DNA of 64,000 nt, from positions 1,736,001 through 1,800,000 of the forward strand of contig NZ_CP093845.1 in the NCBI RefSeq assembly GCF_024732245.1, read 5' to 3'. Source of the DNA: Dietzia sp. B32 (lineage in GTDB: Bacteria; Actinomycetota; Actinomycetes; Mycobacteriales; Mycobacteriaceae). The position numbers and the translations under genes are program-made. The notes under the pieces are model-generated. The model made no database searches and had not been told where the DNA came from. It saw nothing but the letters and a program-made list of their open reading frames with translations. This document shows positions 59,468-63,905 of the stretch, piece by piece. Within the stretch, counting starts at the first letter, position 1. Each line of letters begins with the position of its first letter.

Positions 59468-59937
59468 TTCCAGCCGGTGTCCACCCGGATCCGTTCGAGC
59501 CTCCGGTACGCGATCAGCCAGCGCCCGTCCACCCGGCGGTAGCGCTCGTGGTAGTGCCCCCAGCCGTGGAGCCAGCGCTCGCGGCCGTCGACCGACCACC
59601 ACAGCCGGTCCTCCATCGCCCAGACGCCGGTGGCCGTGGCCTCGCCGGTGGTCGGGTCCGGGCCCGTCAGCTCCAGCAGCGGGGTGTGCCCGTGGTGGAC
59701 GCTCGTCACCGGGTTCGGCCCGTCGAGGGTGTCGCGGATCGCGGCGGTGAGCGCCTCGCGACCGCGCACCTGCGCGGCACCGCCGCTGGCGGCCCAGGAT
59801 TCGCTGACCACGTCCTCGGTGTGGCACGGACCGTAGCCGTCCCACTGCTTGGTGTCCATGACGTACAGGCGGCGGGCGAAGACGGCCCGGATCGCCTCGA
59901 GGTCTGCGGCGGTGCCAGCCGACCCGACCCCGCTCAC
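59464..59937 (-). CDS. SnoaL-like domain protein (nuclear transport factor 2 fold)
   Basis: The 157-residue protein has the NTF2-like pattern of the SnoaL_4 group. An N-terminal helix (AADLEAIRAVFARRLYVMDTK) with the Trp-Asp-GYGP stretch is followed by VRGREALTAAIRDTL, then the three-strand block (HHGHTPLLEL, TATGVWAMED, YHERYRRVDGRWLIAYRRLERI). Members are steroid-isomerase-like or dehydratase-like enzymes, and the substrate is unknown. GTG 59937 overlaps the argJ stop by 4 nt (GTGA), so it is translationally coupled to argJ. It ends inside the 4-nt CTAG shared with the esterase gene. Confidence 0.82.
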   Translation of the reverse strand: MSGVGSAGTAADLEAIRAVFARRLYVMDTKQWDGYGPCHTEDVVSESWAASGGAAQVRGREALTAAIRDTLDGPNPVTSVHHGHTPLLELTGPDPTTGEATATGVWAMEDRLWWSVDGRERWLHGWGHYHERYRRVDGRWLIAYRRLERIRVDTGWN

Positions 59938-61148
59938 GTCGTGTAGTCGGCGTTGATCGAGATGTACTCGCGGGTGAGGTCGCAGCCGTAGACCGTGCAG
60001 CTCCCGTCGGCGGCGCCACCCTCCACTCCCAGGTCGACCGCGATGGTGACCTCCTCGGCCTGCATGATCTCGGTGAGCCGTTCGAGCTCGGCCTCGCCCG
60101 GGAACGCGGGATACGTCTCGAGGTCGCCGAACACGATCCGCACCCGCTCGGGGTCGATGTCCGTGTCGTCGTGACACTTGCCGATCGCCATCGCCACCCG
60201 GCCCCAGTTGGGGTCGGCGCCGTGCACCGCGGTCTTGACCAGTGGGGAGTTGAGGATCGCCTTGGCGACCCGCTTGGCCTGCGCGCGGTCACGCGCGCCG
60301 GTCACCTCGACGGTCAGGAGTTTGGTGGCGCCCTCGCCGTCGCGCGCCAGCTGGCGGGTCAGGTCCAGGCAGATCGCCGCGAACGCCTCGCGCAGTTCGT
60401 CCTCCCCGACCGGGTCACCCGACCCGCTCGCCAACGCGATCGCGGTGTCGGAGGTCGAGGTGTCCGTATCGACGGACAAGCAGTTGAAGGTCTCGTCCAC
60501 CGCGGCCCTGAACGCGGCGTCCAGCACACCCGGCTCCACTGCGGCATCGGTGAACAGCACCGCGATCATCGTCGCCATGTCCGGTTCGATCATCCCGACG
60601 CCCTTGGCGATGCCCACGATCTCAGCCGTGCCGCCCGTCGTCGTCGTCATCTCCACCCGCGCGGTCTTGGGGTGGGTGTCCGTGGTCATCATCGCGCCGG
60701 CCAGGGCGACGGCGTCGGCATCGAACTCGGCGTCGGCCAACCCGTCGAGGTGCGTGCGCAGCAGGTCCATCGGGTAGCGCCGCCCGATGACCCCGGTGGA
60801 GGCGATGAGCATCTCCTCCGGCTCGGCGCCCACCGCGCCGGCCGCGTGCTCGAGCACCTCGCGCGCGTCGGCCATGCCCTGCTCACCGGTCGCGACGTTG
60901 GCGTTCTTGGCCACCACCACGACGCCGCGCGCCCGACCGCTCTGTGCGTTGGCGCGGCTGAGCACGACCGACGGGCCGGCGAAGAGGGACCGGGTGAACA
61001 CCGCGGACGACGCCGGGGAGGGGCCGTCGTTGACGACGACGAAGACGTCATCCCCGCGCTCGCGCAGTCCGGCGGCACCCGCGCGGGCGCGGAAGCCCTG
61101 CGGGAGCGGGATCGTCTGGGCGGTGTCGGCGGCGTTCGGCGGCGTCAT
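59934..61148 (-). CDS. argJ: bifunctional glutamate N-acetyltransferase / N-acetylglutamate synthase
   Basis: The 404-residue protein (ATG 61148; a second in-frame ATG at 61157) has the ArgJ autocleavage motif KGVGMIEPDMATMIA, in which Thr near residue 190 becomes the nucleophile at the new N-terminus of the beta chain. It also carries the ASTGVIGRRYPMD segment and GADPNWGRVAMAIG. It transfers acetyl groups from N-acetylornithine to glutamate (and from acetyl-CoA) in arginine synthesis. No argC, argB or argD is next to it, which is unusual. GGGGGAG precedes the start. It is cotranscribed with the SnoaL-like gene. Confidence 0.93.
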   Translation of the reverse strand: MTPPNAADTAQTIPLPQGFRARAGAAGLRERGDDVFVVVNDGPSPASSAVFTRSLFAGPSVVLSRANAQSGRARGVVVVAKNANVATGEQGMADAREVLEHAAGAVGAEPEEMLIASTGVIGRRYPMDLLRTHLDGLADAEFDADAVALAGAMMTTDTHPKTARVEMTTTTGGTAEIVGIAKGVGMIEPDMATMIAVLFTDAAVEPGVLDAAFRAAVDETFNCLSVDTDTSTSDTAIALASGSGDPVGEDELREAFAAICLDLTRQLARDGEGATKLLTVEVTGARDRAQAKRVAKAILNSPLVKTAVHGADPNWGRVAMAIGKCHDDTDIDPERVRIVFGDLETYPAFPGEAELERLTEIMQAEEVTIAVDLGVEGGAADGSCTVYGCDLTREYISINADYTT

Positions 61149-61463
61149 GGCCACCATTCTCCCCCGTACCCGCCCGCGGTGGCACCCGGGCGTCCGATGG
61201 CCCGTCTAACGCGTCCCCGCTCCCCGAGTTTTTTCGCGAATGTGACTCCCCTAACAAAAGAAAGTTCGAGAGGCTCATTATCTGCGTGGATAAAGACATG
61301 TGTGCTGTCCCGGGGGCCCCGAAACCGAGCTGTAGGTAGAAATTCCGCGATCGCTGCGTAACGTCCTCCAGCGGATTCGGGATGTACATCGCGAGTCCGA
61401 AAGCAGGACTGCACCACGAGTGCGGCGCACCCTCGCGCCGCCCGCAGACGAAAGGATCATCAC
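61149..61463 (+). other. 315-bp leader/promoter region of the first small ORF
   Basis: No gene is visible. The part at about 61225-61300 is clearly richer in A and T than the rest of the window (a TTTTTT run, AACAAAAGAAAG, GGATAAAG) and likely holds the promoter. A possible pair is TTCGAG at 61265 and GATAAA at 61289. A small hairpin (CGGCGC/GCGCCG) lies at 61423-61440 just before the ribosome binding site. If transcription starts near 61300 the leader is about 160 nt. Confidence 0.45.
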
Positions 61464-61625
61464 ATGATCGAGCAGATCTTCACCGGTTTCCTCAACTTCT
61501 TCAACAGCCTGATCGGCACCGGCTCCACCGCCGCCGAGGGCTTCGTCAACACCGGCTCCGCCGCTGCCGAGGGTGTCTACGGCACCGTCACCGGCTCGCT
61601 CGGCAACGTCGTGGGCTCGCTCTGA
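61464..61625 (+). CDS. small PorA/PorH-like ORF 1, 53 aa
   Basis: The 53-residue product (starting MIEQIFTGFLNFFNSLIG) has no signal peptide, Lys, Arg or Cys. It is amphipathic and rich in Gly, Ser, Thr and Val with a repeated TGS-A-AEG[FV] pattern: TGSTAAEGFVNTGSAAAEGV. These features match the tiny PorA/PorH pore-forming proteins of Corynebacterium, which act in the mycomembrane, although I see no residue-level homology. The ribosome binding site GACGAAAGGATCATCAC (61447-61463) is nearly identical to that of the second small ORF. AT-rich leader DNA upstream and strong terminators downstream suggest high expression. Confidence 0.75.
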   Translation: MIEQIFTGFLNFFNSLIGTGSTAAEGFVNTGSAAAEGVYGTVTGSLGNVVGSL

Positions 61626-61663
61626 GCTGAGTGACGCTGGACCCGCGAGGTCCTGGTCGCATT

Positions 61664-61699
61664 CAACGCCGACATTCTCTTTCGAGAATGTCGGCGTTG
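61664..61699 (+). terminator. terminator after small ORF 1
   Basis: A perfect 16-bp stem (61664-61679 with 61684-61699) with a TTTC tetraloop, followed by TGCATTTAT. It is one of the best intrinsic terminators in the window. Confidence 0.85.
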
Positions 61700-61730
61700 T
61701 GCATTTATCAGCCCATTCTTCTCCCGCCTT

Positions 61731-61754
61731 CCGGGCTTTTCCGGGAAAGCCCGG
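61731..61754 (+). terminator. second hairpin behind small ORF 1
   Basis: A 9-bp stem (CCGGGCTTT with AAAGCCCGG) and a 6-nt loop, 31 nt after the first terminator. It could be a back-up terminator or part of the upstream control of small ORF 2. Confidence 0.5.
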
Positions 61755-61771
61755 CACGCCTTTCGGCAATG

Positions 61772-61791
61772 AATGTGGCGCAGATCACATT
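61772..61791. promoter_or_regulatory. Crp/GlxR-type site AATGTGGCGCAGATCACATT
   Basis: The site has perfect outer arms AATGTG and CACATT and only one mismatch (G for A) to TGTGA-N6-TCACA. It lies 200 nt upstream of small ORF 2. It suggests cAMP-dependent control of the second small ORF by the GlxR-type global regulator. Confidence 0.6.
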
Positions 61792-61990
61792 AAACCGCGA
61801 GTGCCTGCCAACCAGCGAAAGTAAAGAGCTTTCCCCGTGAACCGCCCGCGCGCGACACTGATCCGGGTGAATCCTGCTGCAGCCCTACGTAGCGTCCAGA
61901 GGTGAGTTCCCGATGAGCCCCGAGCCCACCGGGAACCACGCACACCGATCGACGCACCAGGCGTCGCATCCCCGACGAAAGGACCATCTC

Positions 61991-62149
61991 ATGGGTTCCA
62001 TCGAGACCTTCCTCCCCGGCCTCGCGACCGGCTCCAGCGCTGTCAGCACCGGTTCGCAGGTCGTCGACGGCGGTGCCGACCTGGCCGCCAACGTCCTCCA
62101 GTTCTTCGGCGGCCTCGTCAGCACGGTCACCGACGCCCTCGGTTCCTGA
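61991..62149 (+). CDS. small PorA/PorH-like ORF 2, 52 aa
   Basis: The 52-residue product (starting MGSIETFLPGLATGSSAVSTG) has no signal peptide, Lys, Arg or Cys. It alternates small and hydrophobic residues in two amphipathic segments, the second being ANVLQFFGGLVSTVTDALGS. As with the first small ORF, the length, acidity and amphipathicity match PorH/PorA-type porins, and a FFGG/FFN motif is shared in spirit. ATG 61991 is preceded by GACGAAAGGACCATCTC, matching the leader of ORF 1 in 15 of 17 positions. A strong terminator follows at 62209-62242. Confidence 0.75.
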   Translation: MGSIETFLPGLATGSSAVSTGSQVVDGGADLAANVLQFFGGLVSTVTDALGS

Positions 62150-62208
62150 GCCGACGCGCCTGACGGCGCCTCGCCCGGGCCCGGCTGCGGTCGGCCCGAG
62201 TGCACCGT

Positions 62209-62242
62209 GAGACCGGCCCCCGCTCCGGCGGGGGCCGGTCTC
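62209..62242 (+). terminator. terminator after small ORF 2
   Basis: A perfect 15-bp stem (62209-62223 with 62228-62242) with a TCCG tetraloop, 59 nt after the second small ORF. Confidence 0.82.
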
Positions 62243-62305: not shown

Positions 62306-62767
62306 ATGGAACTCGACCTGACCCGCCACGTCGCCGCCGACCCCGCGACCGTGTGGGCCGTGCTCGCCGACATCCCGGAGGCGCACCGCACGCTCAGCGG
62401 GGTGCAGGCGGTCGAGATCCTCACGCCCGGCCCGTACCAGCCCGGTCTGCGCTGGCGCGAGACCCGCACGATGTTCGGCATGAAGGCCACCGAGGAGATG
62501 ATGGTGGTGGCCGTCGAGCCGCCGCACTCCACCACGATCGTCGCCGAAAACGGCGGCACCGAGTACAAGACCGTCTTCACTGTCACCCCGGACGCCGACG
62601 GTGGCTCGACCCTGCGGATGCGGTTCAGGGCGCACACCGCGCACGCTCCCGCGGTCTCCCGCGTCGTGATGACCGTGATGGGCCGGTTCGCGGAGAAGTC
62701 CACCCGCAAGACGATGGAGCAGGACCTGGCCGACATCGCCGCCGAGGCCGAACGCCGGGCCGCCTGA
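62306..62767 (+). CDS. SRPBCC-family protein (START-like ligand-binding fold)
   Basis: The 153-residue protein starts at ATG 62306 with the SRPBCC opening LTRHVAADPATVWAVLADIPE, the helix-grip fold of polyketide cyclase/dehydrase-like proteins. A central sheet (LRWRETRTMFG, TTIVAENGGTEYKTVFTV) and a long C-terminal helix (STRKTMEQDLADIAAEAE) follow. It binds a hydrophobic ligand that cannot be predicted. TACCGT (62294-62299) is 6 nt before the ATG, so a leaderless transcript is likely. It is convergent with the nitronate monooxygenase gene. Confidence 0.84.
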   Translation: MELDLTRHVAADPATVWAVLADIPEAHRTLSGVQAVEILTPGPYQPGLRWRETRTMFGMKATEEMMVVAVEPPHSTTIVAENGGTEYKTVFTVTPDADGGSTLRMRFRAHTAHAPAVSRVVMTVMGRFAEKSTRKTMEQDLADIAAEAERRAA

Positions 62768-62798: not shown

Positions 62799-63905
62799 CT
62801 AACCGCGCTGCTGGACCGCCCGGTCCCAGAGGTCCGCGACGACCTCGGCTGCCGGTCGATCGGCGTAGGCGTCGGCCTCCCGCCAGCGGGAGCCGGCCCA
62901 CAGCGGCGGCACCTCGGGGTCGCCGGCCTGCGCGGCGGCCTTCCGCATGGGTCCGGTGAGCAGGTGGAGATGCGGGTACGCCGGGGGCGCGGCCGCGTCG
63001 AACTCGTCCACGAACTCGTTGACCAGTGACCGTGCGAAGCGGCCGGTGTAGCAGCGGGTCGGCCGCGACTCGGTGAACCGGGGGTCCCCGAGCGCGGCCC
63101 GGTGCAGGGCACTCGTACCCGCCTCCGGCGTGCGCAGCAGGACGGTGCCCACCTGGACCCCGTCCGCCCCGGCGGCCAGAACGGCGGCGACGTCCTCGGG
63201 CGTACTGATCCCGCCCGCCGCCACGAACTCCGTCTCCGGCAACTCCTCGCGCACCGCCCGCACCAGTGCCAGCGTCGTGATGTCGTCGGGCTCCTCCCCG
63301 ACCGTCGTCGTGGACCGGTGACCGCCGGCCTCCGCGCTCTGCACCGACAGCCAGTCCGCGCCCACCTCGACCGCACGGCGCGCGTCCGCGACCCCGGCCA
63401 CCGTGACGACCACGGCCGACCCCACGTCCTGCAACGCCCGGACCACCCCGGGGTCCGGGATGCCGAAGGTGAAGGAGACCACCGCGACCGGGTCCTCGAC
63501 CAGGGCGTCCAGGGTGGCGTCCTGGTCGAAGTCGGTGAACTCCGGCCCCGGAGTGAGTGCGACCCCCAGCCGCTGTGCGACCGGTCCGATCGCGGCCGCG
63601 AACTCCGCCACCACGCCGGGGCCACCCGCCGCGGACAGCGCGGCGTCGGAGTCCGCGCGGTCGAGGAGGAAGACGTTGACCCCGAACGGCGCGTCGGTGA
63701 GTTCACGGACGCGAGCCATCTCCGCCCGGGTGCCGGCGGCGTCGAGGTAACCGGAGCCGATCATCGCGATCCCGCCCGCCTCTCCGACGGCGGCGATGAG
63801 CTCCGGTGTCGTGGGCCCGCCCGCCATGGGCGCCCCGATCACGGCGCGGCGCAGGTGGGACGGGAGCAGACGGGCCCGGGCGGGGCGGGAGTCGACGCGA
63901 GTCAT
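62799..63905 (-). CDS. nitronate monooxygenase (2-nitropropane dioxygenase type)
   Basis: The 368-residue FMN-binding TIM-barrel enzyme has the opening PMAGGPTTPELIAAVGEAGG, the FMN-site strand ADWLSVQSAEAGGHRS with the catalytic His, and EFVAAGGISTPEDVAAVLAAGADGVQVGTVLLRT in pieces along the barrel. It oxidises nitronates such as propionate 3-nitronate to carbonyl compounds. The ATG at 63905 overlaps the stop of the partial upstream gene by 4 nt (ATGA), so it is the second gene of an operon extending beyond the window. Confidence 0.92.
   Translation of the reverse strand: MTRVDSRPARARLLPSHLRRAVIGAPMAGGPTTPELIAAVGEAGGIAMIGSGYLDAAGTRAEMARVRELTDAPFGVNVFLLDRADSDAALSAAGGPGVVAEFAAAIGPVAQRLGVALTPGPEFTDFDQDATLDALVEDPVAVVSFTFGIPDPGVVRALQDVGSAVVVTVAGVADARRAVEVGADWLSVQSAEAGGHRSTTTVGEEPDDITTLALVRAVREELPETEFVAAGGISTPEDVAAVLAAGADGVQVGTVLLRTPEAGTSALHRAALGDPRFTESRPTRCYTGRFARSLVNEFVDEFDAAAPPAYPHLHLLTGPMRKAAAQAGDPEVPPLWAGSRWREADAYADRPAAEVVADLWDRAVQQRG

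Follow-up and report, generated by a model that had tools for sequence, protein, structure and literature searches.

The mycomembrane pore MspA is a beta-barrel of secreted subunits, presumed to act as the general pore of this membrane. Smaller envelope proteins have been described in Corynebacterium glutamicum, where PorA, PorH and ProtX are reported to be tiny and helical or predicted helical (excerpts of PMC12632848 and PMC9671496) and to have no signal sequences (excerpts of PMC12632848). The same excerpts state that surface assembly of PorH needs both PorA and O-mycoloylation. ProtX is described as a very small, predicted helical, signal-less, O-mycoloylated and cell-wall-linked member of the sigma-D regulon (PMC12632848, PMC11175481), with no pore activity described in the excerpted text, and as the likely receptor of phage Cog (PMC9671496, in excerpt). 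A 40-aa cell wall channel protein of C. jeikeium, PorACj, is homo-oligomeric and anion-selective, according to a title cited in PMC9233653. Moreover, porA, porH and mycoloyltransferase genes are named as members of the sigma-D regulon of C. glutamicum (PMC11175481, in excerpt), and overexpression of sigD is stated to raise porH and cmt1 (PMC5508688, in excerpt); porA and porH are not among the 11 sigma-D promoters directly tested in PMC6338062, nor are they mentioned in its excerpted text. As for Dietzia, its channels are said to belong to the MspA superfamily (excerpt of PMC9233653, citing Mafakheri 2014), and the genome announcement of D. maris mentions a purified channel protein and gives no sequence.

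We analyzed a window of 64,000 nt (G000:C1:1736001-1800000, the whole stretch of DNA under study) from Dietzia sp. B32, in which two small ORFs stand in tandem between argJ and an SRPBCC/polyketide-cyclase-like gene (Table 1). A preliminary description had pointed to the range 61149-62242, the first 9 bases of which lie inside argJ, and had given the ORFs as 53 and 52 codons long and without Lys, Arg or Cys; both are exactly so. In fact, among 605 ORFs of 40-70 codons in the window (start-to-stop, both strands, nested starts counted apart), only ORF1 and ORF2 are free of these three residues. The absence of a signal peptide, which had been claimed from reading the sequence alone, agrees with the complete lack of basic residues in either ORF, and a Shine-Dalgarno precedes ORF1 and ORF2 alike. 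No description of such small proteins in Dietzia was found in the open-access papers searched.

Table 1. Features of the locus and of the further family members in the same genome. Plain numbers are positions in the window; C1 numbers are positions on the contig.
Feature	Position	Strand	Remarks
argJ (flank)	59934..61157	-	PF01960, 417 bits; synteny conserved
CRP/GlxR-like palindrome, ORF1 upstream (-223)	61241..61256	+	TGTGACTCCCCTAACA; 9/10 half-site matches
Sigma-D-type promoter, ORF1 upstream (-106)	61358..61384	+	GTAACG-N17-GATG
5'-UTR hairpin before ORF1	61422..61441	+	GCGGCGC-ACCCTC-GCGCCGC; 8 nt before Shine-Dalgarno
Ribosome-binding leader of ORF1	61447..61463	+	15/17 positions common to ORF2 leader
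ORF1	61464..61625	+	53 aa, anionic (-3), amphipathic, no K/R/C
Hairpin after ORF1, possible terminator	61664..61699	+	perfect 16-bp stem; folding z -7.9
CRP/GlxR-like palindrome, ORF2 upstream (-217)	61774..61789	+	TGTGGCGCAGATCACA; 9/10 half-site matches
Sigma-D-like promoter, ORF2 upstream (-102)	61889..61915	+	GTAGCG-N17-GATG; misses strict GTAACR form
5'-UTR hairpin before ORF2 Shine-Dalgarno	61950..61966	+	CGACGC-ACCAG-GCGTCG; score 17
Ribosome-binding leader of ORF2	61974..61990	+	15/17 positions common to ORF1 leader
ORF2	61991..62149	+	52 aa, anionic (-4), amphipathic, no K/R/C
Hairpin after ORF2, possible terminator	62209..62242	+	perfect 15-bp stem; folding z -6.1
SRPBCC/polyketide-cyclase-like gene (flank)	62306..62767	+	PF10604, 66 bits; synteny conserved
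Nitronate monooxygenase-like (NMO) gene (flank)	62799..63905	-	PF03060, 222 bits; synteny
Family tandem pair (L114, C1:2832500-2836500)	C1:2834397-2834552 + 2834040-2834195	-	
Family member (L115, C1:2385600-2389700)	C1:2387572-2387721	-	
Family member (L208, C1:39500-43500)	C1:41490-41651	-	

ORF1 and ORF2 are real genes. The search across relatives that had been suggested as a check found both frames conserved in Dietzia, with synteny and upstream sites kept. The ORF1 profile matched 14 of 23 Dietzia genomes (E < 1e-12) and the ORF2 profile 16 of them (E < 1e-16), 14 of the latter at the argJ/SRPBCC locus; the remaining two, in G001 (contig 139) and G014, are at another place or showed none of the three flanks. 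In total, 17 of the 23 genomes have ORF1 and/or ORF2 between argJ and the SRPBCC gene. Both are found there in 11 genomes, ORF2 alone in three (G002, G003 and G005), ORF1 alone in two (G021 and G022, the second tallied with the first, whose gene is the same), and ORF1 with a different third-type gene in one (G001). Neither is present in the other six (G004, G006, G007, G012, G014 and G018), and of these, G004 and G012 alone reach a completeness of 90%. The species with both ORFs include D. maris (genome 83% complete), D. massiliensis, D. cinnamea, D. alimentaria and D. aurantiaca, as well as Ca. D. intestinigallinarum and Dietzia sp. NCCP-2495; the NMO gene was not found on the short D. maris contig that carries the locus. 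Because six genomes retain one of the pair only, the proposal of a strict two-component channel is weakened.

Searches with the single ORF sequences in 101 relatives gave nothing below E 0.01 outside Dietzia. A combined profile (A4) matched 13 of 121 genomes of the family, eight of Dietzia and five of other genera, and the latter five are judged to be chance matches because they are weak (E 9e-4 to 9e-3) and lie within frames of 212-633 aa. No convincing homologue outside Dietzia was found among the 121 family genomes. A mobile origin was also considered, and neither a plasmid search with ORF2 nor a phage search with ORF1 returned a match.

We then compared the ORFs with the described systems. 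Pfam gave no family match for ORF1 or ORF2 beyond one of ORF1 to an antiporter at chance level (E 0.13). The NCBIfam models of PorA and PorH (NF033925, NF033938) did not match either ORF at E <= 10, while C. glutamicum PorA and PorH match them over the cut-off. Comparison by hhalign with profiles of 16 PorH and 18 PorA rows (15 and 17 hand-picked among the matches listed, plus the C. glutamicum sequences) gave probabilities of only 1.4, 0.6, 1.35 and 1.6%. Homology to PorA/PorH thus failed both by family model and by profile comparison, and the suggested kinship holds at the level of traits (tiny size, no signal sequence as read from the sequence, amphipathic helix) and not of family membership. 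The two systems also resemble each other in the mostly acidic character of the helix, the adjacent genes, the Ser-rich motifs and the sigma-D regulon reported for porA and porH. However, porA and porH stand in tandem with gaps of mostly ~50-130 nt, whereas in Dietzia separate upstream sites and a separate following hairpin accompany each gene, and ORF1 and ORF2 are mutual paralogues with four more relatives in the genome. ProtX and PorACj are likened to the Dietzia proteins by description and not by sequence, and PorACj differs in its anion selectivity, the Dietzia proteins being acidic.

The MspA model (PF09203, 179 positions) matched none of the 23 Dietzia genomes. Matches in 44 of 61 family genomes serve as the positive control, because the 14 standing control genomes gave none; several other genera of the family likewise include genomes without an MspA match. 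This result conflicts with the excerpted statement of PMC9233653 on Dietzia channels: the one channel reported from D. maris was subsequently assigned to the MspA superfamily, whereas none of the 23 Dietzia genomes matches MspA. PorH (NF033938) was likewise unmatched in all 23 Dietzia genomes at E <= 0.1, with control matches in C. glutamicum; in Corynebacterium it was found in 28 of 61 genomes at E <= 0.01 and in 10 of 61 over the cut-off. With MspA and PorH undetected, some other pore is expected in Dietzia.

Each protein was predicted by AlphaFold2 (monomer, 8 rows) with moderate confidence as a single helix, spanning residues 2-52 in ORF1 (mean pLDDT 77, pTM 0.41) and 4-51 in ORF2 (mean pLDDT 80, pTM 0.42). 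Amphipathicity peaks at 100 degrees per residue in both, and the helical moment was equalled by none of 1000 shuffles for either ORF. On the column means of the alignments, the corresponding share of 2000 shuffles was 0.002 for ORF2 and 0 for ORF1. In the same moment test, C. glutamicum PorH was significant and PorA was not (0.135). Three Gly-Ser pairs never vary in the alignments: Gly20-Ser21 and Gly31-Ser32 in ORF1, and Gly21-Ser22 in ORF2. Moreover, ORF1 contains an internal repeat of 33 nt or 11 residues, which would place Ser21 and Ser32 on one helix face. O-mycoloylation sites are reported to have Ser/Gly/Ala-rich surroundings and no strict motif (PMC11066868, in excerpt), and the invariant Gly-Ser serines, whose surroundings are in line with this, are candidate O-mycoloylation sites.

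Divergence was measured over 36 pairs of nine genomes, with argJ and the SRPBCC gene as yardsticks. Mean synonymous divergence was 0.19 for ORF1 and 0.29 for ORF2, against 0.35 for argJ and 0.40 for the SRPBCC gene, and mean non-synonymous divergence (pN) was 0.22 and 0.19 against 0.08 and 0.11, respectively. Codon bias is strong, with ACC and ACG used 49 and 1 times in ORF1 and 202 and 89 times in argJ. Biased codons together with low synonymous divergence are read as high expression, so the two genes are probably highly expressed and at the same time change fast in their amino acids.

The two ORFs are not just a pair, as had been supposed. Alignment of the ORF1 and ORF2 sets by hhalign gave a probability of 92.6% (E 4.5e-7, 26 columns), and judged by these profiles the two are paralogues. 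Four further relatives in this genome, K/R-poor and 50-62 aa long, have no sigma-D-type motif upstream and bring the family to at least six members here. Other Dietzia genomes have extra divergent pairs, triplets and loci of relatives. On the best reading, this appears to be a Dietzia-specific family of signal-less, acidic, amphipathic single-helix proteins of 39-63 aa.

The upstream regions of ORF1 and ORF2 share the same architecture. The ribosome-binding leaders had been called nearly identical, and their 17 nt, GACGAAAGGA(T/C)CATC(A/T)C, do agree as claimed. This likeness extends well past 17 nt, since palindrome, promoter and hairpin recur across species. The upstream DNA is also AT-rich as described, with 47% GC at 61222-61310 and 56% at 61690-61840, against 71.5% in the window; merely 0.02% and 0.3% of window stretches of equal length, respectively, are as low in GC. 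A CRP/GlxR-like palindrome scoring at least 8 near -220 is present in 12 of 14 ORF1-type upstreams (3.8% of shuffles) and in 14 of 15 ORF2-type upstreams (5.3% of shuffles), and a stem scoring at least 18 stands directly before the Shine-Dalgarno in 26 of 29 leaders (4.8% of shuffles), where the compared upstreams come from related genomes and are not independent. The hairpin of ORF2 itself scores just below the threshold of 18 used in this count. Compensating changes occur between the arms, for example GCGGCGC/GCGCCGC and GCGACGC/GCGTCGC, as read from the list of arms. Downstream, perfect inverted repeats do follow each ORF; their description as strong terminators is merely plausible, because neither has a proper T-run and a consensus terminator scan of the region found none. 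A separate inverted repeat (61372-61399) lies across the -10 region of the promoter of ORF1; its two 18-nt arms overlap and are 89% complementary.

A scan of the region for ordinary sigma-70 promoters gave nothing. The sigma-D consensus is published as GTAAC(A/G)...GAT, with PrsdA reading GTAAC-15 nt-CTCGAT (PMC6338062, in excerpt). The motif GTAACR-N17-GAT is found in 13 of 14 ORF1-type upstreams (from 13 ORF1 orthologues plus an additional G015 gene; shuffled mean 0.03), at -103 to -107 before the start, or at -135 in G010. Its spacing, GTAAC-N18-GAT, is that of PrsdA, and these sites conform to the published motif. The agreement is weak in ORF2-type upstreams, where the strict GTAACR form occurs in 5 of 15 and the relaxed GTARCR-N17-GAT in 7 of 15. 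Upstream of family members at other loci the motif is missing in 31 of 34 cases, and it is missing at L208 as well. Across this genome, GTAACGN{16,18}GATG has eight hits, seven besides the ORF1 site (reversed control, none), some of them apparently within coding frames, and no known sigma-D targets were seen downstream of these hits, as judged from translations. Eight occurrences in the genome are too many for the motif to carry much weight alone. The anti-sigma-D domain of RsdA (PF16751) was detected in 20 of 23 Dietzia genomes at E <= 0.01, in 14 of them over the cut-off, and in none of 14 controls; G012, a genome with the motif before each of its three 39-aa genes, gave no match. From these upstream sites, ORF1 and ORF2 may be regulated by a CRP/GlxR-like protein and sigma-D. 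Two of the other GTAACGN{16,18}GATG sites, C1:914648 (L199) and C1:1297101 (L200), begin 109-123 nt before ORFs of 143 and 198 aa with a Shine-Dalgarno-like stretch, which are candidate sigma-D targets of their own.

Taken jointly, we favor with some reserve a reading in which ORF1 and ORF2 are Dietzia-specific, signal-less helices of the mycomembrane that are probably O-mycoloylated and likely form a pore in place of MspA. What has been computed is conservation, codon bias, common upstream architecture, the predicted helix, paralogy and the undetected MspA; from these we infer regulation, export, mycoloylation, location, oligomer and pore. A promoter region controlled by a CRP/GlxR-like regulator and sigma-D would drive abundant production of the proteins, which would cross the plasma membrane by the same route as corynebacterial PorA and PorH. 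O-mycoloylated on the serines of the invariant Gly-Ser pairs, they would form oligomers in the mycomembrane that enclose a water-filled and probably cation-selective pore replacing MspA. The PorA/PorH-like role had been put forward in the preliminary description, and it remains the best reading in view of conservation, missing signal, sigma-D-type promoter and undetected MspA, without the family membership. It is a tentative possibility that alpha-helical mycoloylated pores of this kind are peculiar to Dietzia, as a family that arose separately from PorA/PorH or has diverged from it beyond recognition.

The strongest rival takes them instead for O-mycoloylated surface or tether proteins like ProtX, which would link mycomembrane and wall or serve as phage receptors and would not be pores. 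The size, predicted helix, missing signal, regulon and wall linkage reported for ProtX, as well as its link to phage Cog, all speak for such a role, and the high non-synonymous divergence and many paralogues fit exposed surface proteins. However, another pore is expected where neither MspA nor PorH is detected, and the amphipathicity is that expected of a pore-lining helix; neither point is decisive, and we consider a ProtX-like role less likely than the favored reading. Secreted membrane-active peptides, such as a two-peptide bacteriocin or surfactant-like products outside the envelope, could also be small, amphipathic, adjacent and codon-biased, but ORF1 and ORF2 are acidic with zero basic residues and have no double-glycine leader. 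Their immediate neighbors, argJ, SRPBCC and NMO, include no immunity or transport genes, this position is kept across species, and the sigma-D-type promoter and the empty plasmid (ORF2) and phage (ORF1) searches make such peptides very unlikely.

One hydrophobic helix behind an envelope-stress-type promoter would suit small peptides of the inner membrane or of a stress response, either regulatory or resembling type I toxins, whose genes respond to envelope stress. The codon bias and the multiple copies point rather to abundant structural products, and no known RNA family was found in the region, which may still hold an undescribed antisense RNA; we rate this explanation as highly improbable. 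Finally, the conserved hairpins and upstream sites might belong to a non-coding regulatory or repeat locus, which is hardly credible: the frames are retained in 14 genomes each with length changes in-frame, the ORF1 set keeps its protein motifs at 33-91% identity, and Shine-Dalgarno and codon bias are both present.

Returning to the mycomembrane pore, ORF1 and ORF2 are concrete candidates for the passage of small molecules across the Dietzia mycomembrane. They would represent a second signal-less helical outer-membrane family, unrelated in sequence to PorA/PorH. If the pores are indeed a family peculiar to Dietzia, mycomembrane pores would have had three or more separate origins, two genera would have recruited unrelated helical porins to the sigma-D regulon, and this genome would hold six or more pore paralogues under different promoters. 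The family would also offer an independent system in which to look for the export route of such proteins and for what governs O-mycoloylation.

Several arrangements of the relatives were observed besides. The second gene of the tandem pair at L114 has an upstream TTGACT...GATAAA that resembles an ordinary promoter. Divergent pairs with one common intergenic region occur in several Dietzia genomes (L118, L119, L121, L124, L125, L126 and L131). G012, which is without the pair at the argJ locus, has three tandem 39-aa relatives (L217, 3638-4536), each with GTAACG...GAT at -135 to -139. Tandem K/R/C-free ORFs of 47 and 56 aa lie between the SRPBCC and NMO genes in G001 (L211, 1393-1771) and G016 (L212, 709-1086), on the strand opposite to ORF1 and ORF2, and the locus in G016 totals five small genes.
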